Positions 19,170 through 53,808 of a stretch of 64,000 nucleotides of DNA are shown one piece after another. Source of the stretch: a virus; the IMG/VR virus record IMGVR_UViG_3300027771_000013, positions 1 to 64,000 of that record, one strand, 5' to 3'. Made by a program: the position numbers and the translations under genes. The notes beneath the pieces were generated by a model. It did not search any database, was not told the origin of the DNA, and saw nothing but the letters and a program-made list of their open reading frames with translations. Numbering within the stretch: position 1 is the first letter of the stretch; each line of letters starts with the position of its first letter.

Positions 19170-19358
19170 ATGGGTATCATTAAGGATGCCCTGCAATTTA
19201 TATTTTCATTTATTGCAGCCGCATTACTTGTAGCATTAGGCACAGCAATCCTGATATTTGGTGGAGCCATTATGTCTGGCCTTACCCTACTAGCAGGATT
19301 GCTGTTTATTATTGTTATTGTGGCTTTTGTTATTAAAGCAGCGCTATCGGGAGATTAA
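19170..19358 (+). CDS. Small membrane protein (two transmembrane helices)
   Basis: 62 residues, almost all hydrophobic: helices at about 9-32 (FIFSFIAAALLVALGTAILIF) and 36-58 (LTLLAGLLFIIVIVAFVIKA), with short charged ends. It starts 2 nt after the previous stop without a clear SD, so translation is probably coupled. Its end overlaps the end of the opposing vRNAP gene by 4 nt. Function unknown; a superinfection or membrane-modifying protein, or a holin, would fit the size but nothing distinguishes them. Confidence 0.65.
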   Translation: MGIIKDALQFIFSFIAAALLVALGTAILIFGGAIMSGLTLLAGLLFIIVIVAFVIKAALSGD

Positions 19359-22300: not shown

Positions 22301-25300
22301 TAACGGTTCATACGCTACAGCTAACGCACCAAATTGACTAAGGAAGTCTGATTTACTTTCCTTGCTAGATCTACGTTCAGCAGTAAAAATAAAGGCATAA
22401 ATTTCTTTAGCTCTACCCATATCGCCGTCATAAAAATCATCAGGTGATAATGCGTTTCTAGCTTCTTCATACAAATCAAACAATTCGTTTTGCGCCAAAG
22501 AAGAGCTTGTCTCCATCGAAGTCTGTAAAGCTTGTTCAACTGCTTGTAACGTATAAGCTTCTTGGTCAGTTAATCTCAAAGCACCAAGTGCTTTTGATGT
22601 AAATGGCTTTGTTTTATTTAGTAACGATTGAATAAACACATCTGTAGCATGAGCAGGAGACGCTCTTTCTGCTTCAGCCTGGAATATGCCGTATGCGCCG
22701 TAAACAGTTTCAACTACTGACTGTAGAGCGTCTCTCATTCGTGCTGTGTGCTTTAACGAAGCACCCCTACCCGTTTTATCAGCCAACGCTTCAAAGACGC
22801 GTCTATGGCTAAAGCTAACTGGATCAGAGCTTTCTTGCTTACTAATCTTTTGTTTTGTAGTGGTGGTATTTTGTGATCCACCATTTTCTGTTTGACTAAA
22901 GATAATTGAAGTATTTGCCAACACAATAGCTACTGCGTTATCCGCTTTAGTGCTGTCTTTAATGTTTAGTCCGGCAAACAAAATATCTTTAATTGCTTTT
23001 ATAAATCCTTGTAGGCCCGTAATATTGTCTGTTTCTGTTGGTAGTGCATTACGGTAAGTAATGTTTGCTAACACTTCTCTTTGAAAGCGTTCATTTGTAA
23101 GTCCCCAAGACATTAATTCATCGACGTCTTGTGTGGCATTTCCAAAGTCTTTCAAGTCGTTGTCTGCAATATACTGCTTAGCTTTTTTACGTACTTTCTC
23201 TAAATTAGCTACTGCTTCATTAACAATTCGATCACTTTTGCTTAATACAGTATTGGCTTTTTTAGCTAACTTAGCCGCTTGCTTAGCAGAGAATACGCGT
23301 GTTTTAACTGTTGCATGCAGTAGTTCATGCATCGCCAATTCAGGTGACACATTAGACTGGACCAGGCTAGCGCCTTTGATATACAAAACACCTTGGTTAT
23401 TATCTGCATTTGCGTCAAACCACCCTAATGCATTTTCAAACCCAGCTGGGATTTCTGTTTCAGTTGTAATGTAAACAACCCGAATGTCCCTGTTAATCTT
23501 TTTATTAATTGCAGGGATAAGGCGGCTATATGCTTTTTCCGTAGCAGATACTTCTACACCTGATTTCATTACCCGTTTAAGCTGATCAATCAATGCACCA
23601 GCATTAAGATCTTTAGGTGCTATTGACTCAAACCATCGTACTAACTGTTCATTAGCAGGTGTAATAGGCGTGCCTACTTGATCGCCACTTACACTGTCTG
23701 ATGGCATAGAAGGAGGGCTTTTCTTTTGTGTTGCAGATGGATTCAGAATACCTTCAGGAGCTTTTGCTACTAATGGCGCACCTAAAACCATCAGGCGGGC
23801 TTCTATTGCTGCTTTTTGCTCAGCTGTTGGAGCATAACTTGCCCCTTCAAAATTGTACTGGTTTACCGCACGTACTGTGTACAAGTACTGCAGCTTAGCA
23901 ATTTCAGCATCTTTAGCAACTTGTTCAGTCTCTGCCAACACTGTATTAGCTACTTCACCTCCAGTAATGTCTTCTAAAGAGTTATCTCGTTTAAGCAACT
24001 TTTCAAGTAACGCGTCCATCGCTATTTGAATTTCTTTTGAAAACTCAGGATGCTGATCAACAAACTCTTCAAAGCTTTTATTAGTGCGTGCAGCGCCTTC
24101 GTAGATTTCAGTAGGTAATGAGTATTCAAGTAACCCATCAAACGTTTCTTTATTAAGCGCTTTTGCACCCGCTATTATATTAGCAATAGATAAGCCCAAC
24201 GCATCGTGAATATTTAATGCAGGCATCATTCCATATACTGTAGAAGCAATTCCGCTATCTTGAGCGTGAATCCCACCAATTGTTGTTGCAGCACCTGGTG
24301 GCAGTTGCACAGTTTTTTGTGCTCGCCCTTTCATACTATTTTTAGATTTAGTTGTTGAATTATTTGTCGGTATTTTATTTTTAAAATTGGTAATTACGTT
24401 GTATGCCAGATCCGTTGCTGCAGCTAAACGCGGCTTTTGCTTTGACATTCTTAAGCCTGCGGCTACGTTACCTGACTGCTTTGACATTCTAGTATGCGTA
24501 GTCGGTTCCATCGAAGAAATTTGCTCGACGATAGCTTGCTCTTCTTCCAAAGTAAGGTCATGTAAAGGATTTTGTCCTTTAGTACTTTCTATCTCACCAT
24601 TTGCTACTTTTGTATCAATAAGCTGCTGTCGCAACAAAGTGTATGCTAAATCGTACTGTGCATGAGCAACTTCAGTAGCACTGCCCATTTGATTTCTTAC
24701 AGAGACGACTTCATCAAAGTTCTCTTCTAGCAACAACGACATGCTAGGTCTAATTGCGTTCCATAAGTTAAATGTTGCTCTATCGTATTGCGACGTTGTA
24801 AGAGCAGTTTCTAACGCTTGCTCAAACGACATATTGACGTTTAAGCCTCTAATAGCCTGGGTCGGTTGAATGAACACATTCACTTGAGTCAAAATATCTG
24901 TTAAAGCACCTTTATCTTGATCTTTAACTGCTTGAGTAATCTGCTTACTGTAGGTATCTAAAATGTCACTAGCCATTGCTGCAAAGGCTTTATCTGCACC
25001 TGCACCAAACATCAAAGGTGTTAAAGGACTTTTGAGTAATTTACGGCCTTCTGAAGTAACTTGATGTTGCCCATCTTCATTCTTAATGATGTCAGGCATG
25101 AAAGAAAACATCGCTGTAATAACATCTTTATTTCTTTCTACTGCCCATGCTTTAATATCGTCATTTGGATCTACTGGGTTCAGTAAATATTGGTGTAACA
25201 GCTTTTCTAGTTTATCAGCGGCTTTTTCGTAGAAGTCTTGCCCTTCTTCTTTGTATTCAGCAAAATTTTCATGCACAGAATCTTGTGTAAAGAACCCAAA

Positions 25301-28300
25301 TGCTTCGCCAAACTCTAATAAGTTTGCGCCTAATTGTGCATGTAATAACGCAGGTCCATTAGCTACACCATCAACTTCGCCCATGATATTAGCTTCAAAC
25401 GGCTTACCATTAGCTTCTTTATATTTTGCCCACTGAAGTAATGCATCGAGGCCAGCAGCTTCATTGCTGCCTATATAATTAAGCAATGTCTGTCTTTCTT
25501 GTGGTGATACAGTAAACGAATTCAATCCCAGGCTAACAATAGCAAGTGCAGCTTTAGCTTCAGCAGACTCCATTTCTTTTTCTAAGTTAGCAATCGTGTC
25601 TGCATTTTTAAAGTTTTCAATTTTTACGCCTAAGTTCTGTGCAACACTTAACTTAAACATATCAATCAAATGCTTGTCTTTATCAGTACCGTCAAAAGCT
25701 ATTTGTACTTTATAGTCAGACAACCCAATAAAATGCCTAACTAATTTACTGCTTTGTGGGTTAATAGCATTTTGCTCAAAGCCAGCTCGTTGAATTACCC
25801 AAATCTTTGCTTGTAAGTAAAACGGTGTTTCTAGTCCATCATCTTCTAATTCTAATAATTCTTTCCACTCTGTAAGCTGCGACAAATCTCGTTCAATACT
25901 TTCGTTAACAGCACGTTGTTTAATAGCGTCTGTTACATGCAAAGCAGTATTTTCTATGTCTACCCAACCCATCATCTGCTTAGTAAAATCATCACCAAAC
26001 TGTTCAAGCAAAGTAACCATATCTTGCTTCATTTGCCACGCATGACTATTTGAAGAATTGACTCGCTCTTGTAGTACTTTAGGTGTTTTTTGCAAACTGT
26101 TCTTAGGCTGTTTTTGAGCGTTATTTTTAGCAGCTAGCGTTGGAAATACTTTTGCGCTTTCAGCCCCGAATAACTTAGCAAACATCATCGTTGCGCCTTT
26201 AACTTTGTCTGTTAAATCGCCTAACTGAGGGAGTCCTGCTTCTGTGGTTTGCGGTACATCAATTAAAGGCGCTACGCGTTGGCCCGTTGTGTAATCTCTG
26301 CGTAAACGGTACGCAGTAATAATGCCTTCTTGATCTTTCAGACTACTTAATGGAACACCGGTAGCTGCTGCATACTCAGCTTGTGTAAACTGGCGTTGCT
26401 CTAAAATACCTTCTGATAACAATAAAGCAACCGCATGGTTACCCATTGATGTCGCTAACGTGCTTAACGTGTCTTTAGGCGCATTCTTTCTTGCTTTAAG
26501 GCCCAGCATTTGTGCAACGTTGTTACCTATCTCATTTTGCGTGTATTTATCTAACTGCCAACCTTCTCCGTATATAGTCTGGGCTTGGCTCGTCAATGCA
26601 TCATTAGTGCTGTCGTCATCAACACGAATAAGCGATAAAACTTCTTGTTGTGTACTGTATCCACTGTCATTAATACGCTCAGCTAAATATTGAAAAGCTG
26701 CTGTAGTAATAGCATCTTCTACATTACCTTCTAACTGCCCATTAGCATCAACAAAATATCTAAGCTTGTCTCTCCAATTAGGTACACCGTCAACATCTCG
26801 CATATTGCCAGAAACTTTGCCTCTCCAGGCTTTGGCATATTGCGCTAAAGCAAAAAGTAAACTCTTATTTTCAGCCGTTAATTCAGCATTGCCTGTGTAA
26901 GTGGCTAAAATATTTGCAGCTTTATCTCTAGTCTCTGCAGTTACTTCATCTTTAGCAGGCGCAAATAAAGACAAAAAGTTCTTTTGTCCAATAAAAGCTC
27001 GCTTAGTTATATCAGTCGCATTAGTCTTTGCTTGATATATCCATTGCTGAACAATGTTTCGTTCTTTAAATGGCTTATCAACATCTTCTTCTAGCATTAC
27101 CGAACTTAGTATTTCTACACGGCCTGTTTCTTCGTTTACTTCTTCAGTAGGATTTTCTAATTCGTCTATTAAATTATAAATAAACGTTTCTTCATTAATC
27201 TCTGTACTTTCTTGCGCCACCTGCTCTTGCACTGACTCCGGCTGCGCCTGTGTCACTGCTTCGGCAGTTGTTGCATCACTCACTTGCTCATTATCTTGTG
27301 GTGCTGGCTGATCTTGTACGGGCGCTTGTACAACGTCTGTTGCAACAGGCTCAACTGGTGTAGTTACTGTTTCATTTTGTGTAGTAGTCGCCGCAGTCGC
27401 TTGTCCGTCATCGACGGAAACCGACGCAGGCTCTACTTGTGCATCTGCTGTAGAAGCACTCTCTTGTGGTACTTCTTGCTGTGTTTCAGTAGCTGCCGCT
27501 ACCTGTTCGGCTGAAGCCGAGACAGGTGCAGGCTGCGTTGCTAAAGTGCCGTCTGCGTTAAAATTTAAATCAATGGCTGCATCAATTTGTCTGTCCATTG
27601 CTTTTATAGCTTGAACTTCTTCGATTACATCTTTAACAATGTTTTTCTGTCTGCCTTCAAACGTTAATGTATTAAGAGCTTTGGCATTGGCAGGCTTTGT
27701 TGCTGAAGTTGTCCATTCATTGGAACCTTCTGCCGTTTTATAAACATATTGAGTAGTACGTTGACCTTGTGCTCCCGAAGCTAAGTAGGCTGCGTTTCCT
27801 TGCTCAACTGCTTTGGCTTTACTGCGATGCCCACTTAACCAGCTCTTAATGTCTTTTTGTTCTTTAACTGCTGATGTTTGGTCGTTAAGACGAACAGCTG
27901 TAGCAATGCGTTGGGCATAAGAAGTTAATCCTTTCTTCTTACCGTCTTTAACGTCTTGACCAACTTCACTAGTAGGCGCTTCTAATAAAGAATTTAGATA
28001 CTCGTTTTGTTGTACGGTAAAGCCAGTAATATTGCTGTTTAATAACTTTTGTGCACGCTCAGGCGTAGCAGCTTCTTCGTTAGCCAACATAAAGCTAATA
28101 GATTGTTGTGCTGCTGTAGCTTTTTGCTCAGAAGATGAGTCTTCTTTATCAATGATTGAATCAGCGCTTTCAATTGCTTCAATGGTTACTCGATTACCTG
28201 CATTATTTTGTTCGGTTTTAACTTCACCTAACGTAGTAATTAAGTTGTTCATTTCTTTCAAAGGCTTGCCAGCTAAAAATGCTTCGTCTGCTCGAATACT

Positions 28301-30406
28301 TTCTTCAAGCTCTACACCTTTTGTCGCTAGAACTTTTGCGCTTGCTTGATACTGGGCACGCTGCGCTTTAAGAGTGGCACGTTTTTCTTCTTTAGATAAC
28401 TCAGGATCGCCTTCATCACGAATAATTTTATTTTGATTCTTTTTCTGCTCTACTAAAGCTTGTCGTGCGGCTTTTAATTTCGCTTTTTTATCACGTATTG
28501 TTACTTTATTAACCGTATTAATCTTTTCAGACAAATCTTTAATCTGGGTATCAATATCAGCAACCAAAGTATTGAGTTGCGTTGTTGTTTCAGTAACTTC
28601 TGTTTCAGTAAGCTCTGGGTTTTTTAAACGGATTCGCAGCGCATTAGCTGCTTGAGCAGGATTATACGTGGCTGATTCAGGGTTAATTAAAGCGTCTATA
28701 TCTCCTGATTGTATTGCCATTACTGTTTCAGTTGCTACTGCTGCTCTATCTGAAGATTGCTGTGCATTAACTTTTTTTGCAGTTTCAGTATTTCCAGTTA
28801 GTGCTGTGTACACTGCACCGGGTCCAGACACACCAATACCGCCCATAGTACCTAAAGTAGTATTGACGAATATATCTTTACCGTCTAATGGCTTACCGCT
28901 TAATGATGATTTTTGTTCAGCAACTGCTTGCAGTCCTTCTGTTGCGCCTTCAACTAACGCACTAGCAGGTGCCTTAAGTACGGTTGCTCCACGATCTGCT
29001 AATTTTCTAGTAATACTCGCTGTGTAATCAGCAGCCATATTAGACGACATAGCTTTTGGTTTTTTCCACGTTCTTAATAGTGTGGCATCACCGATATAAG
29101 ATGCTGCTGCCCAAGTTAGCCCCCAAGCAGCCATTTCTTCCATCTCGTCTTGCGTAGGATCAGCACCGTCATTATTTTTACGGTACTCAATCATGCCTTT
29201 GTCAAAAACATCTACGCCTTGTGCCATTACTGATGCGGCCAGTAATGGGCTTGCAATAACACCTAATCCAAGATCAGCTGATGATTGTGCTACAAGATCA
29301 ACAACAGCTCTTTTGTTATTTAATAGTACGTTTGTACCGCCTTTTAACAGCTCAGCACTTACTTTAGCTGCTGTCCATGCTGTTGCTAAATGTTCACTAG
29401 CAGTATCACCAGCTTCGTATTGAGCAAGTAGCTCTTCACGACTTTGCTTAGTTGAGTCCCATGTTTCTGCAGCTTCTTTCGCTGCTTTTCCAGCGTTATC
29501 TCCGCGTGCCACTCCTGCATAAATAGGCTCAATAGTTGCAGTGTTGTCTGCTTTTTCTTTTCTTAAATCATCAACCCATTGAAGCACTTCTCTAGTTGAA
29601 CGATTACGTTTAGTAGCAGGGCGTCGGGTAACTTCTTTACCTTCATATGTACGCTCCAAAATAGCTGACTCTTCTGCAGTTAATGCAGGCGGCGCATTTG
29701 GATCTTCAAGATCATTAAAGGGTATAGAAGGATCAAGAATGTTAGCAGTACGTTCTGCATTACGAGAAGCTATATAAGCATTTCGATCTTTTTCTTTTTT
29801 GTACAATGCTTTAGTGCTGTCACTTATAATAGATAAATAATCTGTTTCCGCCAAAGTCTCATTTGCGTTTGCAACAGCGGCAGTTATTCTACCTACACCT
29901 TCTACGACATTTGCAGCTACTTCTTTTGTGCCACCCCAAAAGCTGCCTCGCTCATCTCTAGTCTGCCAGGCTTTAGCGTCTACAGCATCTCTGTTTGCTA
30001 TTAGCGCTTCCATTCCTGCTACATTATTTTGCGCGTTCTGTAAATTGAATTGAGACACATCACTGGCTTTGAGCATGTTACCTGCTTTAACGTAATCGTT
30101 AATTGATGCGTAATCTGTAACATTAGCAGAAGGTAAAACAGGTGCCGGAGTGTTTTCGTAAAATTTAAATTCTGGCTCAGTGTAAGAAGAAGGATAACTT
30201 TCTGATTGCGGTCTTTGCGGAGAGTTAGGAACCAATGCTTGCTTTGCACGAGCCAGGTTATCTACAGTTAAAGTACCTAGTTGAATAGGATCATTGCTAG
30301 ATGGCGACAACGCAGCCAACTGAACTGCTTTAGTCTGTGTTGCTGTGTTTACTAAATTAGCTTTAGGCGCTAACGCCGCCAACACTTTTTCTGTAGGTGT
30401 AGTCAT
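19355..30406 (-). CDS. Virion-encapsidated RNA polymerase (N4 vRNAP-like, 3683 aa)
   Basis: Single-subunit RNA polymerase motifs lie mid-protein: an NPQSSKLVRHFIG segment (about 1548-1560) at the TxxGR region, motif A GEVDGVANG (D1679), motif B R1788-x3-K1792-x7-F1800-G, and motif C HAQD (2047) to NIHDALG (D2068). Spacing A to B Lys (113) and A to C (389) is close to N4 vRNAP (111 and 392, as I recall). F1800 replaces the usual Tyr. About 958-1070 is a Pro/Gln/Glu-rich linker before the polymerase. HELLH at 2360-2364 with later DELMSWGLTNERFQ looks like a metallopeptidase domain. The C-terminal ~1300 residues match the region N4 needs for packaging. It is ejected with the DNA and transcribes early genes. 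Leftward, last gene of the capsid operon. Confidence 0.95.
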   Translation of the reverse strand: MTTPTEKVLAALAPKANLVNTATQTKAVQLAALSPSSNDPIQLGTLTVDNLARAKQALVPNSPQRPQSESYPSSYTEPEFKFYENTPAPVLPSANVTDYASINDYVKAGNMLKASDVSQFNLQNAQNNVAGMEALIANRDAVDAKAWQTRDERGSFWGGTKEVAANVVEGVGRITAAVANANETLAETDYLSIISDSTKALYKKEKDRNAYIASRNAERTANILDPSIPFNDLEDPNAPPALTAEESAILERTYEGKEVTRRPATKRNRSTREVLQWVDDLRKEKADNTATIEPIYAGVARGDNAGKAAKEAAETWDSTKQSREELLAQYEAGDTASEHLATAWTAAKVSAELLKGGTNVLLNNKRAVVDLVAQSSADLGLGVIASPLLAASVMAQGVDVFDKGMIEYRKNNDGADPTQDEMEEMAAWGLTWAAASYIGDATLLRTWKKPKAMSSNMAADYTASITRKLADRGATVLKAPASALVEGATEGLQAVAEQKSSLSGKPLDGKDIFVNTTLGTMGGIGVSGPGAVYTALTGNTETAKKVNAQQSSDRAAVATETVMAIQSGDIDALINPESATYNPAQAANALRIRLKNPELTETEVTETTTQLNTLVADIDTQIKDLSEKINTVNKVTIRDKKAKLKAARQALVEQKKNQNKIIRDEGDPELSKEEKRATLKAQRAQYQASAKVLATKGVELEESIRADEAFLAGKPLKEMNNLITTLGEVKTEQNNAGNRVTIEAIESADSIIDKEDSSSEQKATAAQQSISFMLANEEAATPERAQKLLNSNITGFTVQQNEYLNSLLEAPTSEVGQDVKDGKKKGLTSYAQRIATAVRLNDQTSAVKEQKDIKSWLSGHRSKAKAVEQGNAAYLASGAQGQRTTQYVYKTAEGSNEWTTSATKPANAKALNTLTFEGRQKNIVKDVIEEVQAIKAMDRQIDAAIDLNFNADGTLATQPAPVSASAEQVAAATETQQEVPQESASTADAQVEPASVSVDDGQATAATTTQNETVTTPVEPVATDVVQAPVQDQPAPQDNEQVSDATTAEAVTQAQPESVQEQVAQESTEINEETFIYNLIDELENPTEEVNEETGRVEILSSVMLEEDVDKPFKERNIVQQWIYQAKTNATDITKRAFIGQKNFLSLFAPAKDEVTAETRDKAANILATYTGNAELTAENKSLLFALAQYAKAWRGKVSGNMRDVDGVPNWRDKLRYFVDANGQLEGNVEDAITTAAFQYLAERINDSGYSTQQEVLSLIRVDDDSTNDALTSQAQTIYGEGWQLDKYTQNEIGNNVAQMLGLKARKNAPKDTLSTLATSMGNHAVALLLSEGILEQRQFTQAEYAAATGVPLSSLKDQEGIITAYRLRRDYTTGQRVAPLIDVPQTTEAGLPQLGDLTDKVKGATMMFAKLFGAESAKVFPTLAAKNNAQKQPKNSLQKTPKVLQERVNSSNSHAWQMKQDMVTLLEQFGDDFTKQMMGWVDIENTALHVTDAIKQRAVNESIERDLSQLTEWKELLELEDDGLETPFYLQAKIWVIQRAGFEQNAINPQSSKLVRHFIGLSDYKVQIAFDGTDKDKHLIDMFKLSVAQNLGVKIENFKNADTIANLEKEMESAEAKAALAIVSLGLNSFTVSPQERQTLLNYIGSNEAAGLDALLQWAKYKEANGKPFEANIMGEVDGVANGPALLHAQLGANLLEFGEAFGFFTQDSVHENFAEYKEEGQDFYEKAADKLEKLLHQYLLNPVDPNDDIKAWAVERNKDVITAMFSFMPDIIKNEDGQHQVTSEGRKLLKSPLTPLMFGAGADKAFAAMASDILDTYSKQITQAVKDQDKGALTDILTQVNVFIQPTQAIRGLNVNMSFEQALETALTTSQYDRATFNLWNAIRPSMSLLLEENFDEVVSVRNQMGSATEVAHAQYDLAYTLLRQQLIDTKVANGEIESTKGQNPLHDLTLEEEQAIVEQISSMEPTTHTRMSKQSGNVAAGLRMSKQKPRLAAATDLAYNVITNFKNKIPTNNSTTKSKNSMKGRAQKTVQLPPGAATTIGGIHAQDSGIASTVYGMMPALNIHDALGLSIANIIAGAKALNKETFDGLLEYSLPTEIYEGAARTNKSFEEFVDQHPEFSKEIQIAMDALLEKLLKRDNSLEDITGGEVANTVLAETEQVAKDAEIAKLQYLYTVRAVNQYNFEGASYAPTAEQKAAIEARLMVLGAPLVAKAPEGILNPSATQKKSPPSMPSDSVSGDQVGTPITPANEQLVRWFESIAPKDLNAGALIDQLKRVMKSGVEVSATEKAYSRLIPAINKKINRDIRVVYITTETEIPAGFENALGWFDANADNNQGVLYIKGASLVQSNVSPELAMHELLHATVKTRVFSAKQAAKLAKKANTVLSKSDRIVNEAVANLEKVRKKAKQYIADNDLKDFGNATQDVDELMSWGLTNERFQREVLANITYRNALPTETDNITGLQGFIKAIKDILFAGLNIKDSTKADNAVAIVLANTSIIFSQTENGGSQNTTTTKQKISKQESSDPVSFSHRRVFEALADKTGRGASLKHTARMRDALQSVVETVYGAYGIFQAEAERASPAHATDVFIQSLLNKTKPFTSKALGALRLTDQEAYTLQAVEQALQTSMETSSSLAQNELFDLYEEARNALSPDDFYDGDMGRAKEIYAFIFTAERRSSKESKSDFLSQFGALAVAYEPLSNALAALPVAQTTDSDVSMSLYEKAAALIARLMANLRRVITRTNRAETQDVRLITLARSLATQRKKEALRLQRSKTVTETAEDTIEALVNKGRNNLVKALTSDKIKNSNAVVVQALGKVGEVVLENRGQEVIEVIKKVRNQLSEGKQGVFMSMLTDMQGRTENNQVLHTLLNLGNRHTQSRQAIKTQVANVARAAYTSLTDKQSRAVTDFLRTDAAMLFTNRTIAEMESLFAEDGIELNNAIKEMESQLTGTYRLWYLSAAKDLADHMVSSHTHENQAQNVHQIAMLAGFKNTVSAQDQAVAVEILNPLVSLYAIKYLAETKKETLRELFVQERTRPEVNENGVEYTLRQHQAMQEEALTTAFNNDPTLMRKGYVKEIYDQNIDLRIADAVTGEQLEKAGYVKVFDSKLGKDKDDTTSEEQYLYTAKGLGLVKVVSGIMSTTGKRSAGSLAGKDSLGTINVNETARITKRKEDKRNALLTRPENYTPQSDRETRLAPIFNPKGDITGWRQLMLESTKEVIFNPDTRIDQVLGAMASNVFDKAGSEDINNQVVNAHHKQYEEDYVKNPKDYINFSASSSDPEIAEAFRLMPTATKREIKRVWGGNAMFIKNDVFNMTFGYRKYSITDGYKKRALGLSDAINSLLPWKPTEEDQRKISEQVIIGIANGLGVSQLRIRQTEDVWQEIVGVVKDILVIKNLVTFIGNLSSNVTLLAWTGVSINKIISGHVKGFINTVKYERDEKSLFALKSKVETGYFAGDMKREVEQSIVRLEDALERNPVHELVSAGLYQTIVEDVNSVEDPYSMKSQLMESIDRKTRLVPNAIKTGVKNVLMTHDTVTYKVMHKATQYSDFIGRLILVEHLTTRRKNPLSRVDAMSRAQDSFVNYDIPQHRALQYLNDTGLIWFTKYYIRIQKTIFNLFRESPARAFGLAMLEAYFPAMQSVLDSVITEKLANPFGAGAFELIDTWDDAITMQLLIDAIDGD

Positions 30407-47424: not shown

Positions 47425-47741
47425 GGCAGTAACTATCCATGACTTCCTTGTACTTTTCTGATGTTTTAAGAAGTGCCGCTATATAAATACGCTTCTCATA
47501 CAACATTTTTAAATAGGGGTATGAAACAACGTGTACGTTTTTACGGCGCTAATCACCGGATATAAAGACCTTATATGGTAAGACCAACCTTAGTAATCTA
47601 AGAAAGGGTAAAATCTTTTATAATCCTATATGAATCAAGTACTTATCTTTTGGATAAATACCTCAGATGGTCTGTAGCTTGTGCTTCCAGCACGTTAATG
47701 GTCTAATACACCACTACCACAGACCACATATGGAACATGTT
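47425..47741. other. Divergent intergenic region, probable genome-end / early-late junction
   Basis: 317 nt without a convincing gene; an in-frame extension of the next gene upward to 47667 is possible but has no ribosome site. Several AT-rich boxes (CTATATAAATA at 47481, TATAAAGACC near 47574, TTTTATAATCC near 47613, the last a good -10 shape) could serve host-type promoters in either direction. No TTGC-type hairpin was found here. In N4 the terminal repeat separates terminase-side genes from the first early genes, so the linear ends may lie in or near this gap. Confidence 0.4.
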
Positions 47742-48212: not shown

Positions 48213-48333
48213 TTTAAAAATAATAATTTTGAGCAGGTTTTTGAGAAATTTCATATTTGGGTACGAGTTTAGTACTGACAAGACACTAAAACAAAACACT
48301 GACCTACCCCCCCTATCATCTCTGAGCACACAC

Positions 48334-48352
48334 CGCCGTGCGGCGAGGGATG
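48334..48352 (+). promoter_or_regulatory. Hairpin early promoter candidate (vRNAP type)
   Basis: CGCC-GTGC-GGCG followed by AGGGAT and GGACAATT. The distance from loop end to GGA is exactly 10 nt, as in the other early-region copies; the 4-bp stem and GTGC loop are the least typical of the set. Predicted start G at 48352, 34 nt before the next gene. Confidence 0.55.
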
Positions 48353-48385
48353 GACAATTCCGTCCTACTCCGGAGTATAAGTATC

Positions 48386-48571
48386 ATGATGAAAGCACTA
48401 TCAACCATGTGGTCAACACTAGAAATGTTATTCTTAGGCGTCCACTCTTTCGCTGAAGCATTCAAAGAAACTGGCGACATCGTCCTCGGTGAAGTCCAAG
48501 AGCTATCAGCTCAACAGCAACGCGACCATGCTGCTAAACTACAAGCAGACATCAGCGCACTCAATGCGTAA
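48386..48571 (+). CDS. Small early protein, helical
   Basis: 61 residues (MMKALSTMWSTLEMLFLGVH then a charged helix AQQQRDHAAKLQADISALNA). The first ATG of a tandem pair is used; CGGAG lies 11 nt upstream within a palindrome. Hydrophobic-amphipathic N-terminus, charged helical C-terminus, no known family. It fills a single-gene early cassette between a hairpin promoter candidate and an intrinsic terminator. Early N4 genes of this size often encode host take-over proteins; no such function can be shown here. Confidence 0.6.
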   Translation: MMKALSTMWSTLEMLFLGVHSFAEAFKETGDIVLGEVQELSAQQQRDHAAKLQADISALNA

Positions 48572-48607
48572 TACCTTACTCAGTCCTTCAATGGGCTGGG
48601 TATTTTT
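48570..48607 (+). terminator. Intrinsic terminator of first early cassette
   Basis: AATACC outer and CAGTCC-TTCAAT-GGGCTG inner stems closed by GGTATT and a run of five T. It begins inside the stop codon of the small early gene. Confidence 0.8.
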
Positions 48608-48780
48608 CCTACTACACACAAGTACACACACTCAAGATAGACAGTACATAGACAGAAAGAGTACATCTTTACTCCCTGATTCAGTGTTATCTCAGTGTTT
48701 TACTCAATCCCTTACCTATCTAGTTCTAACTCCGATACACCTGTTATCTATTCCTGCTTAGCGATACCTATCCGATACAT

Positions 48781-48800
48781 TGTGCTTACGCACATGAATG
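48781..48800 (+). promoter_or_regulatory. Hairpin early promoter candidate (vRNAP type)
   Basis: TGTGC-TTAC-GCACA, a perfect 5-bp stem with 4-nt loop (GTAA on the template strand), then TGAAT and GGAATG. Loop end to GGA is 10 nt; predicted start G at 48800. SD AGGTT/GGAGG and the next gene follow within 41 nt. Confidence 0.7.
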
Positions 48801-48840
48801 GAATGTATGCAGTGTGTATACATAACTTATGGAGGTTCCC

Positions 48841-49149
48841 ATGGAATCAGTTACAACAGGTTCGTACGTCACTTACAAAGACGTACCTCACATCATAGTC
48901 GCTGATAGTGGGAACTTAGTTAAGATCCTTAATCCATTAAAGGGTCAAGACAAGTTGCAAGTTAAGCGGGTTAACGTACGTCCTATGGCTATAGAGCCTA
49001 GCCGTTCTATTAGTTACCGGGATCGTATGTTCTTGGTTACTGTAAAGAACACCATCATTAGTCTTACTAGTGGGCGTGTTGTGTTTACAGATGCTAATAA
49101 TGGCAACCGTAAAGCTATCTTAGCTGCGGCTCAATCTAGTCAAGCATAA
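48841..49149 (+). CDS. Small early protein with KOW/SH3-like fold
   Basis: 102 residues from ATG 48841, with GGAGG 5 nt upstream (an in-frame ATG at 48829 overlaps that SD and is rejected). The sequence is beta-rich: VTTGSYVTYKDVPHIIVADS, VKILNPLKGQDKLQVKRVNV, a shape like small KOW or Tudor-type barrels that bind RNA, RNA polymerase or DNA. No exact family. It is the only gene of its cassette, between a hairpin promoter and a UUCG terminator. A regulator of host transcription is a reasonable but unproven guess. Confidence 0.65.
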   Translation: MESVTTGSYVTYKDVPHIIVADSGNLVKILNPLKGQDKLQVKRVNVRPMAIEPSRSISYRDRMFLVTVKNTIISLTSGRVVFTDANNGNRKAILAAAQSSQA

Positions 49150-49150
49150 G

Positions 49151-49172
49151 CCAACCTTCGGGTTGGTTTTTT
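49151..49172 (+). terminator. Intrinsic terminator (UUCG loop)
   Basis: CCAACC-TTCG-GGTTGG followed by TTTTTT, 2 nt after the preceding stop codon. Textbook intrinsic terminator. Confidence 0.92.
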
Positions 49173-49197
49173 AATCCCTGAATAATAGGCAGTTCTA

Positions 49198-49217
49198 TGT
49201 GCTTGCGCACAAGCATG
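49198..49217 (+). promoter_or_regulatory. Hairpin early promoter candidate (vRNAP type)
   Basis: TGTGC-TTGC-GCACA, then AGCAT and GGATGTT. Same stem as the copy at 48781, loop GCAA on the template strand, 10 nt from loop to GGA; predicted start G at 49217. It lies 25 nt after a strong terminator and 46 nt before the next gene. Confidence 0.72.
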
Positions 49218-49262
49218 GATGTTATTACCCAACTCAATCAACCAATCATAGGAGTGTAATTT

Positions 49263-49367
49263 ATGGGCTTACTGGATCTATTTATATACGGAGACATTGT
49301 TACGCATCTACTGATGTTACTAACCATTGTCCTTACTTTATGCATATTTCACGCACTTGGAGATTAA
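49263..49367 (+). CDS. Tiny membrane protein (34 aa)
   Basis: 34 residues: MGLLDLFIYGDIVTHLLMLL then a hydrophobic helix ending FHALGD. One transmembrane segment (about 13-30). AGGAG lies 7 nt before the ATG and the stop is 2 nt before the next start, so it is likely a real, translated gene despite its size. It is the first gene of a two-gene early cassette. Function unknown; small early membrane proteins in phages sometimes block superinfection or lysis, but nothing here shows that. Confidence 0.6.
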   Translation: MGLLDLFIYGDIVTHLLMLLTIVLTLCIFHALGD

Positions 49368-49369
49368 CC

Positions 49370-49651
49370 ATGCAAATACATGAAAGTTGTTTACCTGTTA
49401 TCCACGCTTTGAATAACGGTGAGATCAGTGAAGAAATCATTATGGCTAGCGCAGCTGGCTGGTATCTAGGCACTATTCAAAGGGACTTAGAATACGGTTA
49501 CTTACTGCCTTACTCAAGAGACACTGATTACATGAGTAAGAAGCAAGCTGAAGATTACTACCAGTATGTCTCAGTGCCAGCAACAGAAGATCATGAACAC
49601 GATGATCGTGAAGCTGACTGTAACGCTGCAGATGCAGGGCTCTACGCATAA
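49370..49651 (+). CDS. Small acidic early protein
   Basis: 93 residues from ATG 49370, with GGAG 7 nt upstream overlapping the end of the tiny membrane gene. Sequence: helical N-terminus (CLPVIHALNNGEISEEIIMA), aromatic middle (LEYGYLLPYSRDTDYMSKKQ), and a strongly acidic, His-rich C-terminus (EDHEHDDREADCNAAD). No family known to me. An acidic, DNA-mimic-like tail is possible. Ends a cassette closed by a terminator. Confidence 0.65.
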   Translation: MQIHESCLPVIHALNNGEISEEIIMASAAGWYLGTIQRDLEYGYLLPYSRDTDYMSKKQAEDYYQYVSVPATEDHEHDDREADCNAADAGLYA

Positions 49652-49656
49652 AGATT

Positions 49657-49691
49657 AAGACTTGATCCTTCATGGGATTAGGTCTTTTTTT
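49657..49691 (+). terminator. Intrinsic terminator
   Basis: AAGAC and TGATCC-TTCAT-GGGAT stems with a closing GGTCTT and seven T on the plus strand, just after the acidic early gene. A hairpin promoter candidate starts at the very end of its T-run. Confidence 0.85.
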
Positions 49692-49710
49692 ACGCTTGCG
49701 CGTGAGGGTG
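49692..49710 (+). promoter_or_regulatory. Hairpin early promoter candidate (vRNAP type)
   Basis: ACGC-TTGC-GCGT, then GAGGGT and GGAATT; 10 nt from loop to GGA, predicted start G at 49710. It abuts the T-run of the previous terminator, so it can only serve the two genes downstream. Confidence 0.68.
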
Positions 49711-49764
49711 GAATTCTTGCTGATTAGCGCACGAATTAACTAAACCATCTTACGGGAGAGCGTT

Positions 49765-50007
49765 ATGAACACTTACTTGCACGCAGTTGGCGAACTAATG
49801 GGTGGCGCAAAACTTGATCATGTTGTCGATGCATTTAGACGTCGAGAAATGACAGATTTCTGTGTCACAAATAACCCACGTAAAACTAACGTGGACTACG
49901 CAACCTTTGTTGCAGAGCGTACTGAATATGAGCTAGTCATTGACACTATGGCGTTAAGACTGACTGAAATACACGATGAAATACAGGAGGTTCAGCATGA
50001 TTTATAA
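49765..50007 (+). CDS. Small early protein, helical
   Basis: 80 residues. GGGAG precedes the ATG by 6 nt. Two helical stretches (LMGGAKLDHVVDAFRRREM and ERTEYELVIDTMALRLTEIH) and an acidic end. It overlaps the next start by 11 nt, so both are translated from one mRNA. No family recognised. Part of a two-gene early cassette behind a hairpin promoter candidate. Confidence 0.65.
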   Translation: MNTYLHAVGELMGGAKLDHVVDAFRRREMTDFCVTNNPRKTNVDYATFVAERTEYELVIDTMALRLTEIHDEIQEVQHDL

Positions 50008-50179
50008 CGGATACCGTACTAAAGCAATTAAACCTATGGCTACACGTCCTCACAAAGCCGTGAGAGAAGTTACCAACGCTGTTAAGGCCATTGACCTAGC
50101 GCTTAGCATCTTGTCTATAACAGCCATAGGCTTCGCTTTATATGTTGCAGCTTTGCATTTCATGCCAGTACCTATTTAA
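49997..50179 (+). CDS. Small membrane protein, early
   Basis: 60 residues from ATG 49997, preceded by AGGAGG 6 nt upstream; an in-frame ATG at 49976 would lie inside the previous gene and lacks an SD. Basic N-terminus (YRTKAIKPMATRPHKAVREV) and one C-terminal transmembrane helix (about 34-55, LALSILSITAIGFALYVAAL). Topology would be N-in, with the short end outside. Function unknown; tail-anchored membrane protein of the early region. Confidence 0.65.
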   Translation: MIYNGYRTKAIKPMATRPHKAVREVTNAVKAIDLALSILSITAIGFALYVAALHFMPVPI

Positions 50180-50190
50180 CAATTAACTAA

Positions 50191-50219
50191 AGCACTGCCC
50201 TAACGGGTAGGCTTTTTTT
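50191..50219 (+). terminator. Intrinsic terminator
   Basis: AGC and CTGCCC-TAAC-GGGTAG stems closed by GCT and seven T, 12 nt after the preceding stop. One A bulges and one G-T pair is present; still a good terminator. Confidence 0.85.
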
Positions 50220-50228
50220 CTTTCTAAG

Positions 50229-50260
50229 TGCACACCCATATTCAAGTGCACACACCCAAT
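50229..50260. repeat. Direct repeat AAGTGCACAC upstream of an early promoter
   Basis: AAGTGCACACCCA is followed 18 nt later by AAGTGCACACACCCA. A related CAAGTACACACACTCAAG lies near 48615, also between a terminator and a hairpin promoter candidate. The CA-rich repeats are the only shared element of these otherwise empty spacers; they could be protein-binding sites. Confidence 0.5.
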
Positions 50261-50322
50261 CAAAACCACACGCATCAGACAGCTCGTAGGTAGTCACTTT
50301 TGTGCTAGCGACGGTAGATTGT

Positions 50323-50343
50323 TTGCTGTTGCCAGCAAGATAG
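50323..50343 (+). promoter_or_regulatory. Hairpin early promoter candidate (vRNAP type)
   Basis: TTGCTG-TTGC-CAGCAA, the longest stem (6 bp) of the set, then GATA and GGATTTG; 10 nt from loop to GGA; predicted start G at 50343, 43 nt before the next gene. Confidence 0.72.
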
Positions 50344-50385
50344 GATTTGTTTGTCCGGTCTTTAACTATTCATTGGAGAATAACT

Positions 50386-50568
50386 ATGACTATAGCATTC
50401 GTAAGGGAATCTCGTCCCTCAGAGCTTGACTTTGCTACCGATTATTCGGAGTACTTGTATCAAGAAGAAGATGCTGCTGAAGCAGTAATGTTTGACTACG
50501 ACTTTGATGTCGCTATGGACAAACATATAGAGAATTTAGAAAAGCAAGAGCATTTTGCTTACGCATAA
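50386..50568 (+). CDS. Very acidic small early protein
   Basis: 60 residues from ATG 50386 with GGAGAA 6-11 nt upstream. Highly acidic (FATDYSEYLYQEEDAAEAVM, then DYDFDVAMDKHIENLEKQEH). Such small acidic phage proteins often mimic DNA and block host nucleases or regulators, but that is only a style argument. It stands between a hairpin promoter candidate and a weak hairpin (GCCC-AATTTC-GGGC at 50588-50601). Confidence 0.65.
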   Translation: MTIAFVRESRPSELDFATDYSEYLYQEEDAAEAVMFDYDFDVAMDKHIENLEKQEHFAYA

Positions 50569-50635
50569 AAATGGCAAGTCTTTATCCGCCCAATTTCGGG
50601 CATTTCATCATTAATTAATTATAAGGAATATCACT

Positions 50636-50908
50636 ATGGGCTATAACTCTAATCCGGTTGCTACTATCGAACGCGCTGCACCAGTTGCTTATGTAAATTG
50701 TGCTCTTGGACGTATCGATGGCCAAACTACTGCAAAAGTAGGCGCTTTGAACTTACTAGCAACCAATCCTACGCATGTTCGTATTATTGAACGTTGTTCT
50801 GATGCTGACCCGGTTAAAGCCGCTGAAGCTATCGCAGAGCTTAAAAACAAGCTAGTTTTGACATTTAAGATGGCTAACGGCACTTCAAGTGCTGCAGTAG
50901 ACTTCTAA
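50636..50908 (+). CDS. Small conserved-type early protein
   Basis: 90 residues: AAPVAYVNCALGRIDGQTTA then LATNPTHVRIIERCSDADPV, a helix AAEAIAELKNKLVLTF, and a short end SAAVDF. A balanced alpha/beta composition indicates a folded protein. AAGGAATATCACT precedes the ATG. No promoter hairpin lies in the short gap before it, so it is probably read through from the upstream cassette; a strong terminator follows. Family and function not recognised. Confidence 0.65.
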   Translation: MGYNSNPVATIERAAPVAYVNCALGRIDGQTTAKVGALNLLATNPTHVRIIERCSDADPVKAAEAIAELKNKLVLTFKMANGTSSAAVDF

Positions 50909-50925
50909 ATCAAAGTTACTTGGGG

Positions 50926-50961
50926 CCTACTACTTTAATTAGTAGTAGGTCAATCTTTTTT
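50926..50961 (+). terminator. Intrinsic terminator (9-bp perfect stem)
   Basis: CCTACTACT-TTAATT-AGTAGTAGG then TCAATCTTTTTT; a perfect 9-bp stem with T-run 5 nt further on, 17 nt after the preceding stop. Confidence 0.8.
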
Positions 50962-51105
50962 CAGCTAATACACCTTAGTATTATCGTTAGTGAATAAAGT
51001 TCCAAAAATATTAGCCTTCTTGTTATCTGTTTGTTAACCTGTAGGCCTACGTAGGTAAGCGTAGGTAAAAATACTTAATTAGTTAGAAAATAATGGATCT
51101 TTTCT

Positions 51106-51396
51106 ATGAGTAGCAAGAATATATCGTTTTTCAACGACAATAATAAAACTAAACCCGCTCCAAAAGCCTATTTAAATCTTTGGCTCCCTACAGGACACAA
51201 TGATAGTCGAAGAAAGTTAGGGTCTATAGCGTTACGAGGTAACTCGGCTGCTGAAAAAGACTTAATAGATTGGCTACAAGAAGACCCATCTCGCGTTGGC
51301 TTATTACTGTCTAAGTTAACTATGGATTTTCAAGAAGCAGCGCCAGCTGCAGCATCCGGCTTTGACCTTTCGCTTGAAGCAACTGTAAAAACTTAA
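51106..51396 (+). CDS. Small early protein (KAYLNLWLP family style)
   Basis: 96 residues. N-terminal polar, then PKAYLNLWLPTGHNDSRRKL and GSIALRGNSAAEKDLIDWLQ, with an Ala-rich, acidic C-terminus. Proteins with the YLNLWxP...RKLGxIxLR pattern occur in early regions of N4-like and other phages, as far as I recall, without known function. The spacer before it contains two palindromes (GTAGGCCTAC, CCTACGTAGG) and a doubled CGTAGGTAA around 51040-51070, but no TTGC hairpin. Weak SD. Confidence 0.65.
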   Translation: MSSKNISFFNDNNKTKPAPKAYLNLWLPTGHNDSRRKLGSIALRGNSAAEKDLIDWLQEDPSRVGLLLSKLTMDFQEAAPAAASGFDLSLEATVKT

Positions 51397-51511
51397 ACAC
51401 AGTTATACCTGTATTTAATCACCCTAACTTCGGTTAGTCGCAGCGTTGTGCCTTTAAAAAGTGCAATCGTTTGTGTCTGTTTAATCCACTCGCTCCGCTA
51501 CGTCCCTTAAA

Positions 51512-51530
51512 CAGCTTGCGCTGAAGAATG
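51512..51530 (+). promoter_or_regulatory. Hairpin promoter candidate before the RNAP genes
   Basis: CAGC-TTGC-GCTG followed by AAGAAT and GCCTTTGG. Loop, stem and 10-nt distance fit the early-region copies, but the start would be GCC rather than GGA. It lies 71 nt before the first RNAP subunit gene. A CTAAC-TTCG-GTTAG hairpin around 51424-51437, without a T-run, precedes it. Confidence 0.55.
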
Positions 51531-51600
51531 CCTTTGGCTGGGCGCTTATATCCTAACACTCTCATTCATCTGTATTTACTTAACCGGTAAAGGTAATCCT

Positions 51601-52536
51601 ATGTCTCAGATAAGTACTGTTACGCAACACGTTGTTGATCCGTATGAACAACAACAAGAGATTGAATACGCTTATTCAACTAAATTTATTGATCAAAAGA
51701 TCCGCAAAGAAATTCTTGCTTGTCCTGACACTGCCCTGCGCATCACCACTGGCGTACGCCTGTTAGAAGATTGGCTTAAAGATACCTATTACCCCAGCAA
51801 AAATGCCCGACTTGCTCAGATTAAAGACATGGATTTACATGCTTTAGTGGTACAAGTTTTCACTGGCATTGCTTATCTGCAAGTACCTACTTTATTTGTC
51901 TCTATTACCGCTGCATTAGCTAGTCGACTTAAGTTTGATGACAAACGCGACAGCATTATGACTATTGCGGAGATAGTAGCCGTTCTATGCCATACCGATG
52001 CGTATGACATCTACAAAGAGAGCGAATTTAGCGGCTTAAAACTGGTTTCTTGTATAGTTTTATCTGACAGCTTAAAAGATACCATCAACCACGCTGTTTA
52101 CATGCCACCAATGGTTGCACCACCTGTGCCTATCACCTCTAATTATGAAAGTGCTTACTTATCCTATAACGACTCATTGTTACTAGGACGTGAGAACTCT
52201 CATGACAAAGACATTTGTTTAGACGTTATTAACATCCAAAACCAAGTGCCTTTAACGCTTAACTTTGCGTTTTTAGCTGCTGTGCCTGAAGCACCGACAC
52301 ATCCGCTAGATACCTTAGAAAAGACAACGTTATGGGACACCTTCCTAGAACAAAGTCGTAGCGTGTATCAACTGATGCGCAAAAACGGTAATCGGTTCTG
52401 GATGACGTACAAAACAGACACAAGAGGCAGACTTTATGCACAGGGTTATCACATTAACCCACAAGGTACGCCTTACAAGAAAGCCATGCTCCAACTGGCT
52501 GATTGTGAGCATGTCACTGGAGTACCTACGACCTAA
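51601..52536 (+). CDS. Phage RNA polymerase, small subunit (N4 gp15-like)
   Basis: 311 residues: the N-terminal part of a T7-type RNA polymerase, ending just past the TxxGR motif (DTRGR at 273-277, then INPQGTPYKKAMLQLADCE). It lacks motifs A, B and C, which are in the next gene. In N4, RNAP II is a heterodimer of two such proteins (gp15, 269 aa; gp16, 404 aa) that transcribes middle genes. The stop TAA is followed 21 nt later, in the same frame, by the start of the second subunit. AAAGGTAAT precedes the ATG. Confidence 0.9.
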   Translation: MSQISTVTQHVVDPYEQQQEIEYAYSTKFIDQKIRKEILACPDTALRITTGVRLLEDWLKDTYYPSKNARLAQIKDMDLHALVVQVFTGIAYLQVPTLFVSITAALASRLKFDDKRDSIMTIAEIVAVLCHTDAYDIYKESEFSGLKLVSCIVLSDSLKDTINHAVYMPPMVAPPVPITSNYESAYLSYNDSLLLGRENSHDKDICLDVINIQNQVPLTLNFAFLAAVPEAPTHPLDTLEKTTLWDTFLEQSRSVYQLMRKNGNRFWMTYKTDTRGRLYAQGYHINPQGTPYKKAMLQLADCEHVTGVPTT

Positions 52537-52557: not shown

Positions 52558-53808
52558 ATGGAAGCATTTACCGGATGGCAATACTTACTTATCGACATCG
52601 CTAATCAATACGGATTAGACAAAGAAACGTTTGACGTGCGAATAGCATGGACTGCAGACAACATCAAAGAGTTAGAAAAGATAGCTCACAACAAAGAATG
52701 GAAAGAAAAGCCGTTGTATCTCGCTGCTGTAATGGCATTGCGTGAAGTGCAAAAAGGCAAACCCACAGGGCATTTAGTAGGGTTTGATGCCGTGTGTTCA
52801 GGCATGCAAATCATGTCTGCCCTTACCGGGTGTGAAAAAGGTGCTGCCGCTACTGGGTTAATTAGTACTGGCGAAAGACCGGATGCATACACGTATGTCA
52901 CCAACACTATGTCTAAGATGCTAGGCACTGCATTGCCGCAAGGACGTACAATGGCCAAAGAAGCCACAATGACTTGCCTGTACGGGTCAAAGAAAGAACC
53001 GGTTCGCATCTTTGGTAAAGACACAGATGAATTAAATGTGTTTTACAAAGCATTGTATGCAGTTGCACCCGGTGCTTGCCACTTGTTAGAAGACTTAGTT
53101 AACTCGTGGATACCGTACAGCAAACTCCATGAATGGGTATTGCCAGATGGATTTAACGCACGGTGTAAAGTTTACGTACAACAAAAGAAACGTATCGAAG
53201 TTGATGAACTTAATCATTCACGATTTGAGTACATTTACTACGATAACGAGGGCGAGGAAAAAGGATTAAAGAACGCAGCCAATGTTATTCATAGCATTGA
53301 TGCCTATATCCTTCGCTCGTTGATACGTCGATGCAGTTATGACATTGACGTCGTCAACTCAGCTTTGTCTTGTATTACGTATGAAATGCTTCAACGCAGC
53401 GTGTTTAATCAACCTGCATCCGCTGGGCAATCTAAAGAACCTGAAGTACAAAAATACATCGATTTATACGCCAGTACGGGTGTAGCAGACATTGTTATCT
53501 TAGAACACCTTGCCGTTACTGACTTTGCTGACTTAAGCACTGCACATTTACGCGCATTGACCAGTGTTTTGGACACGCTGCAAACACACGATCCTTTCCC
53601 TGTTGTCACTATTCACGATGACTTCAAATGTCACGTCAACAACATGAATCACTTACGCAAACACTATAGAAACATCTTAGCTGATCTTGCTAATGGCACC
53701 GTTATTGACGCCATTCTCAATGAACTTCAAGACACTGCCATTACTTACACCAAACGAAGTGAGGGACTGGCACAAAAAATCATGAAAAGTGAATACTCAT
53801 TGAGCTAA
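52558..53808 (+). CDS. Phage RNA polymerase, large catalytic subunit (N4 gp16-like)
   Basis: 416 residues with all catalytic motifs of a T7-type polymerase: motif A GFDAVCSGMQ (D77), motif B R130-x3-K134-x7-Y142-G, and motif C IHDDFK (D354), preceded by VIHSIDAYILRSL. Together with the upstream subunit it forms the middle-gene RNA polymerase. CGGAG lies 6 nt before the ATG, so it has its own ribosome site. The two genes are in the same frame, separated by one stop and seven codons, so one mutation would rejoin them. Confidence 0.92.
   Translation: MEAFTGWQYLLIDIANQYGLDKETFDVRIAWTADNIKELEKIAHNKEWKEKPLYLAAVMALREVQKGKPTGHLVGFDAVCSGMQIMSALTGCEKGAAATGLISTGERPDAYTYVTNTMSKMLGTALPQGRTMAKEATMTCLYGSKKEPVRIFGKDTDELNVFYKALYAVAPGACHLLEDLVNSWIPYSKLHEWVLPDGFNARCKVYVQQKKRIEVDELNHSRFEYIYYDNEGEEKGLKNAANVIHSIDAYILRSLIRRCSYDIDVVNSALSCITYEMLQRSVFNQPASAGQSKEPEVQKYIDLYASTGVADIVILEHLAVTDFADLSTAHLRALTSVLDTLQTHDPFPVVTIHDDFKCHVNNMNHLRKHYRNILADLANGTVIDAILNELQDTAITYTKRSEGLAQKIMKSEYSLS

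Follow-up and report, generated by a model that had tools for sequence, protein, structure and literature searches.

Tetraloop hairpins as predicted early promoters for the virion RNA polymerase of a divergent schitovirus

The DNA analysed here (the window) comprises positions 1 to 64,000 of IMG/VR virus record IMGVR_UViG_3300027771_000013, which is 66,930 bases long in full. Its gene set includes a virion RNA polymerase (vRNAP), a portal protein, a terminase and both RNAPII subunits, so that the markers of Schitoviridae (giant virion RNA polymerase, heterodimeric RNAPII, portal and terminase) are all present. Judged by these genes, the phage is a divergent (N4-like) schitovirus; we call it divergent because a search of the phage collection gave no near DNA match for its vRNAP gene and its gp16 (RNAPII subunit 2) reaches at most 47.5% identity to a named phage among the matches listed. 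The closest relatives are two partial contigs, L001/L002 (= L010/L009), with 74% identity in RNAP1 and gp16. The early region carries a family of small inverted repeats, mostly with 4-nt loops, between terminator-like stem-loops that separate the early cassettes. These hairpins are very probably the early promoters of the phage, read by its own injected vRNAP, with a cognate geometry of loop 4 / spacer 10.

Table 1. Features of the window; hairpins are written stem-loop-stem, and spacing is counted from the loop to the predicted +1.
Feature	Position	Strand	Remarks
Giant virion RNA polymerase, 3683 aa, presumed hairpin reader	19355..30406	-	RNA polymerase domain about residues 1084-2225
Further candidate hairpin GTGCT-TCC-AGCAC	47681..47693	+	loop 3 / spacing 11; predicted +1 47700 (GGTC)
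Candidate vRNAP promoter hairpin CGCC-GTGC-GGCG	48334..48345	+	weaker member; predicted +1 48352 (GGAC)
Terminator-like stem-loop between early cassettes	48577..48602	+	terminator scan
Predicted vRNAP promoter hairpin TGTGC-TTAC-GCACA	48781..48794	+	strict class; predicted +1 48800 (GGAA)
Predicted vRNAP promoter hairpin TGTGC-TTGC-GCACA	49198..49211	+	strict class; predicted +1 49217 (GGAT)
Terminator-like stem-loop between early cassettes	49657..49686	+	terminator scan
Predicted vRNAP promoter hairpin ACGC-TTGC-GCGT	49692..49703	+	strict class; predicted +1 49710 (GGAA)
Terminator-like stem-loop between early cassettes	50195..50210	+	terminator scan
Predicted vRNAP promoter hairpin TTGCTG-TTGC-CAGCAA	50323..50338	+	predicted +1 50343 (GGAT)
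Further candidate hairpin TGC-TTAC-GCA	50556..50565	+	3-bp stem; 10 nt to predicted +1 50573 (GGCAAG)
Terminator-like stem-loop between early cassettes	50924..50951	+	terminator scan
Predicted vRNAP promoter hairpin CAGC-TTGC-GCTG	51512..51523	+	strict class; predicted +1 51530 (GCC)
RNAPII subunit 1 (N4 gp15-like)	51601..52536	+	phrog_2166 E 7e-88
RNAPII subunit 2 (N4 gp16-like)	52558..53808	+	phrog_2051 E 6e-140

An exhaustive hairpin scan of the window recovered all six hairpins listed by a first-pass annotation (48334, 48781, 49198, 49692, 50323 and 51512), and its tally of loops (TTGC in four, TTAC and GTGC in one each) was correct. The six share one build, as had been claimed: a 4-nt loop at -14 to -11, then exactly 10 nt, then G, the start being GGA in five and GCC at 51512. 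The list itself required amendment, because two candidates (50556 and 47681) had been missed and 48334 proved weak. A strict class was defined by loop 4, spacing 10, a C-G closing pair, a T..C loop, a G start and T or A at -1; such definitions are our own, and circularity was addressed by look-elsewhere shuffles together with antisense and downstream controls. Four strict members (48781, 49198, 49692 and 51512) fall within the 3.35 kb from 48251 to 51600. In 1000 shuffles of this region under a first-order dinucleotide model, the best count over all classes was at most 2 and that of the strict class itself at most 1. Outside the region the strict class was absent from the + strand and occurred once on the whole - strand. 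Lone 4-loop hairpins are frequent: the + strand of the window has 361 with a stem of at least 4 bp, and 13 of these have GG at +10. Single ones are expected by chance, but a family of fixed geometry is not.

The hairpins lie some 35-75 nt 5' of successive early genes and point in the direction of transcription; several follow terminators. The one at 49692 begins 6 nt past a terminator, and the start belonging to 51512 is 72 nt upstream of the RNAPII subunit gene, a position occupied by P3 in N4. At 50323 the closing pair is G-C, which puts the site outside the strict class, although its geometry is identical to the rest. The loop GTGC likewise excludes 48334, which has the same 4/10 geometry; alternative registers are possible there, and no hairpin was found at the equivalent place in L002. 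The candidacy of 50556 is supported because its syntenic counterpart in L009 (TGCCG-CAAG-CGGCA) precedes an orthologous gene. At 47681, 11 nt separate the loop from GGTCTAAT, and the hairpin is kept in the 74% relative (L009, 5385; L002, 6426). Predicted template-strand hairpin energies ranged from -1.3 to -5.1 kcal/mol in the window, compared with -2.7 to -6.1 kcal/mol for N4 P1-P3. DNA hairpin energies were dropped as evidence on the strand, the template strand being favoured by just 0.4 kcal/mol at six window sites; no strand difference was predicted for N4, 47681 or 48334.

The first-pass annotation had proposed that absence of these hairpins, with preserved spacing, from related phages would refute its reading; the relatives do carry them. 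In L009, loop 4 / spacing 10 is kept before orthologous genes, with stem and loop letters changed; the syntenic counterpart of 48781 is GCAG-CAAG-CTGC at 6527 and that of 49692 is AACGCG-CAAG-CGCGTT at 7162. The same check gave tetraloop/10 families of 3-6 copies in L081, L083, L084, L087 and L190. For most genes downstream of the hairpins the search for orthologues returned none, because short early genes are lineage-specific. Between about 7568 and 9930 of L002, the 4/10 geometry is retained at 74% protein identity, but the loops have changed to C..G (CAAG) and the linkers are mostly AAAA; the stretch of this contig that was read does not contain the vRNAP gene.

Early regions upstream of gp16 were then surveyed in 80 IMG/VR loci and in named phages. 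These relatives were gathered via alignment queries; single window proteins (gp16, RNAP1 and full vRNAP) gave nothing or near relatives only. With loop letters left free, a grid of loop length against spacing had one strong peak, at loop 3 / spacing 11 / GG (118 compared with 22 expected for stems of at least 5 bp; neighbouring cells about 30-60). Over the early regions of the roughly 80 loci, the C[T..C]G class at 3/11 with GG numbered 146 against 2.9 expected, with 6 in the antisense control and 8 downstream of RNAPII; its consensus is about TGGCC-TNC-GGCCA-Tnnnn-T-GG. Scanned one by one, genomes usually had one main class, the label resting for some on two or three sites. The majority class, 3/11 with T-N-C loops, includes LIT1, LUZ7, pVco-5 and Vibrio 1.026.O, and 3/11 with A-N-A loops was seen in Pectobacterium A38 and kin. 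Triloops at spacing 10 were assigned to L021, L027, L029, L033, L045 and Vibrio D466, and triloops at spacing 9 to N4, Pylas and Dinoroseobacter DS-1410Ws-06; the promoters of N4 itself were recovered at 90, 557 and 4546. Tetraloops fell into 4/10 with T-N-N-C (window, L074, L081, L083, L084, L087 and L190), 4/10 with C-N-N-G (L009), 4/11 (L026, L030, L063 and L048) and 4/9 (Ea9-2, two copies). Copy numbers for 4/10 were six in each of L081, L084, L087 and L190, and three to four in L083. No clear family was found on scanning Rhizobium RHph_I1_6, Ruegeria V14, Meara, ZC03, Axy04 and Vibrio D283b.

At least three lineages besides that of the window have the 4/10 geometry. Because it needs at least four changes on the gp16 tree, tetraloops probably arose repeatedly. 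The loop starts at -14 in both the 3/11 and the 4/10 class, so that, relative to the family majority, one nucleotide of the window hairpins is shifted from spacer to loop. Three loci from the survey are recorded separately: L190 (4957-9828) is a schitovirus-like element in a bacterial genome assembly, on a 233 kb contig from Alteromonas sp. BMJM2, and has six tetraloop hairpins with TAAC/TATC loops; L057 (6414-7551) may hold a further class, with an A-N-A triloop, spacing 12 and three copies with GG starts; and L280 (G071) may hold a family of 5-nt loops at spacing 12, its three copies compared with at most 2 in shuffles.

Trees of gp16 and vRNAP were rejected as proof that geometry is linked to the vRNAP, since at these distances geometry would have to change many times and the trees by themselves show no such link; we therefore relied on two independent natural swaps between close pairs. 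In the first, L043/L044/L085 (spacing 11) and L045 (spacing 10) share 92-93% identity in portal and 85-92% in gp16, but 32% in the vRNAP domain, which is 92-94% identical inside the L043/L044/L085 group. In the second, L041 (spacing 11) and L027/L029 (spacing 10) share 85-90% in portal and 77-83% in gp16, but 33-34% in vRNAP, L027 and L029 being 86% identical to each other in this protein. Within the swap pairs, DNA similarity of roughly 80-89% extends as far as the vRNAP gene region, mostly disappears there and returns beyond it. Site counts at spacings 11 and 10, respectively, were 7 and 3 for the L043 group and 0 and 5 for L045; in the second swap they were 16 and 1 for the L041 group and 0 and 12 for the L027 group. 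An alignment across the swaps was possible for two promoters, and in both a 1-nt gap separates the versions between the stem and +1; one precedes an identical initial sequence GGCGCTTTTGCC, and the other has an identical stem. Geometry was shared in 13 of 13 genome pairs with vRNAP identity of at least 60%, and ten genomes fetched later supplied two further such pairs, both sharing geometry as predicted. Together with this concordance, the swaps, a comparison of two events, are the strongest evidence that the vRNAP reads the hairpins, and they point to that reading from genome comparison. In two sets (L165/L166 versus L167/L168, and L169/L170 versus L173/L174) flanking DNA is similar and the vRNAP gene is not, as in an exchangeable cassette; the end of a neighbouring gene of roughly 450 aa seems to move along with the vRNAP gene.

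The window vRNAP contains no cysteine. Catalytic equivalents of N4 R424, D559, K670 and D951 are present (T7-like), and the last three are conserved in 43 of 43 schitovirus vRNAPs. A structure model of the central domain (predicted local distance difference test score 86) had as its closest solved structures the N4 RNA polymerase domain and the N4 mini-vRNAP-P2 promoter complex (E about 1e-30, template-modelling score 0.59-0.61), and the domain is thus predicted to fold like N4 mini-vRNAP. The motif-B tyrosine of N4 (Y678) is phenylalanine at residue 1800 of the window protein; across the 43 vRNAPs, including that of the window, this position is Phe in 24 and Tyr in 19. N4 Y678 is equivalent to T7 Y639, which discriminates ribose from deoxyribose. 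In the gappy, alignment-dependent region that holds the N4 promoter contacts, the position of R904 is N or K; residue-by-residue comparison of these contacts with loop class yielded no code in such a region.

The one enzyme whose DNA-hairpin promoters have been worked out is N4 vRNAP, and their loop is 3 nt long. In N4, extrusion is driven by gyrase, SSB melts the non-template hairpin, and vRNAP contacts loop and stem, with a ruler to +1 (PMC4496689). By analogy with N4 biochemistry, host gyrase would supercoil the entering window DNA so that the inverted repeat extrudes; the vRNAP would bind the template-strand hairpin, whose loop is mostly GCAA or GTAA (GNNA replacing the GNA of N4); and the distance from stem to start would be the ruler that sets +1. 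Loop length and spacer vary by schitovirus lineage and follow the vRNAP, so each vRNAP would have its own cognate geometry.

Window and N4 (P1-P3; PMC4496689) share a small hairpin before early genes, a C-G closing pair, a GG-type start, a template loop starting with G and ending with A, a promoter before the RNAPII subunit gene and a giant cysteine-free vRNAP. Early-region sense placement, perfect inverted repeats in several copies and fixed spacing to G, all used to recognize N4-type promoters, are likewise found. N4 has stems of 5-7 bp, a 3-nt loop (GAA/GGA) read by K114, R119 and W129, and 9 nt from loop to +1; the window has stems of 3-6 bp, a 4-nt loop (GCAA/GTAA/GCAC), 10 nt, and no match to the N4 loop-reading residues in alignments. 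The first-pass annotation had put the loop of the N4 hairpin about 11 nt upstream of +1; the corrected N4 geometry is a 3-nt loop and a spacing of 9 nt, against 11 nt in most of the schitoviruses scanned. The window hairpins appear to work like N4 vRNAP promoters while falling outside the N4 definition in loop length and centre: they lack a 3-nt loop centred at -11, and 47681 alone allows a triloop reading. Predicted hairpin promoters with the same role and place have been described for LUZ7/LIT1 (PMC3715699; 4-5 bp stems), Pectobacterium CB1-like phages (PMC6027278) and Klebsiella phage KP8 (PMC6950046). All of these have 3-nt loops, the sole kind described in these papers and in PMC4496689; LUZ7/LIT1 are loop 3 / spacing 11 by our scan, and the KP8 table sequences read as loop 3 / spacing 9. 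Erwinia phage Ea9-2 (KF806588) shares tetraloops, with CCATGC-TTAC-GCATGG at 72 and AACTTGC-TTCC-GCAAGTT at 511, near the N4 P1/P2 positions (90 and 557), but differs in having spacing 9, not 10, and its two copies alone are not above shuffles. No published class of vRNAP promoters with 4-nt loops was found in the open-access literature, subscription papers lying outside the search.

That the hairpins are cognate early promoters of the window vRNAP, as originally proposed, is supported by the family statistics, the relatives and the two natural vRNAP swaps. Several observations weigh against it. No mapped transcript 5' ends were found for any tetraloop phage, including that of the window; 48334 and 50556 are weak sites, and 47681 belongs to a different class from the others. 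About a quarter of relatives have no family above shuffles, and among the ten later-fetched genomes six lack a loop-3/4 family exceeding shuffles; one of the six has a possible loop-5 family. The first swap is not clean, with its three spacing-10 sites beside seven at 11 in the L043 group, a mixture that may be the trace of a transition, and pairs with vRNAPs 32-36% identical can both be triloop+11. In addition, N4 loop-reading residues K114, R119, W129 and D901 are unmatched in the window and most relatives in two alignments of a gappy, alignment-dependent region; the N4 reading mechanism can therefore not be assumed for the window. If "tetraloop code" is taken to mean that individual loop bases are read, such a code is inferred.

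The hairpins could instead be vRNAP promoters for which the end of the stem and its distance to +1 are sensed and loops of 3-5 nt are tolerated, giving a spacer code and no tetraloop code. Other loop lengths do occur inside the same genomes (47681 in the window; TGCCG-CAAGA-CGGCA in L002), loop letters vary (GTGC, TTAC and TTGC, with CAAG at the same geometry in L009), and in the two best swaps the spacer alone changes while the loop is constant. However, loop length is near constant per genome where a family has 3-6 copies, as in L084 and L087, L026 (4/11) and L035 (3/11) are sister genomes with one spacing but loops of different length, and loop plus spacer is 14 in both main classes, as if one were traded for the other; we consider this version unlikely. 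A role as promoter elements for phage RNAPII or host RNA polymerase, suggested by the adjoining RNAPII genes, is highly improbable, given that geometry changes with the vRNAP gene while the RNAPII subunit stays 77-92% identical and that the hairpin promoters found at these places in N4 are those of its vRNAP (PMC4496689). For the host enzyme, sigma-70-like sites are almost lacking, with 3 observed against 12.2 expected and none on the coding (+) strand. Least of all do we credit RNA-level elements (terminators, 5' untranslated region stem-loops or processing sites) or chance repeats. The hairpins are short GC-rich stem-loops near gene starts, and a terminator scan flagged 49198 with a weak tail; but no T-tract follows the hairpins, separate terminators exist, the constant 10 nt to G would go unexplained, enrichment across relatives is sense-only and early-only, and the shuffle test argues against chance.

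With the vRNAP as the probable reader, we lean towards a view in which vRNAP genes are swapped as cassettes and promoters across the early region come to adopt the fitting hairpin geometry; six or more loop/spacer pairs, perhaps mutually orthogonal, would then exist, with recognition elements unlike those of N4 and a tetraloop that evolved repeatedly. Several promoters changing together with one gene pose an evolutionary puzzle. The family-wide loop/spacer table and the natural phage pairs, in which vRNAP and promoter spacing differ and two other compared genes differ little, make hairpin reading and counting to +1 testable by swaps. They also offer candidate orthogonal pairs of single-subunit polymerase and promoter working on single-stranded DNA, as well as a simple rule for annotating early promoters in many schitoviruses. 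Elsewhere in the window, near the start of the record, a 2302-aa repetitive protein (4226-11134, - strand) is perhaps a tail fibre or adhesin.

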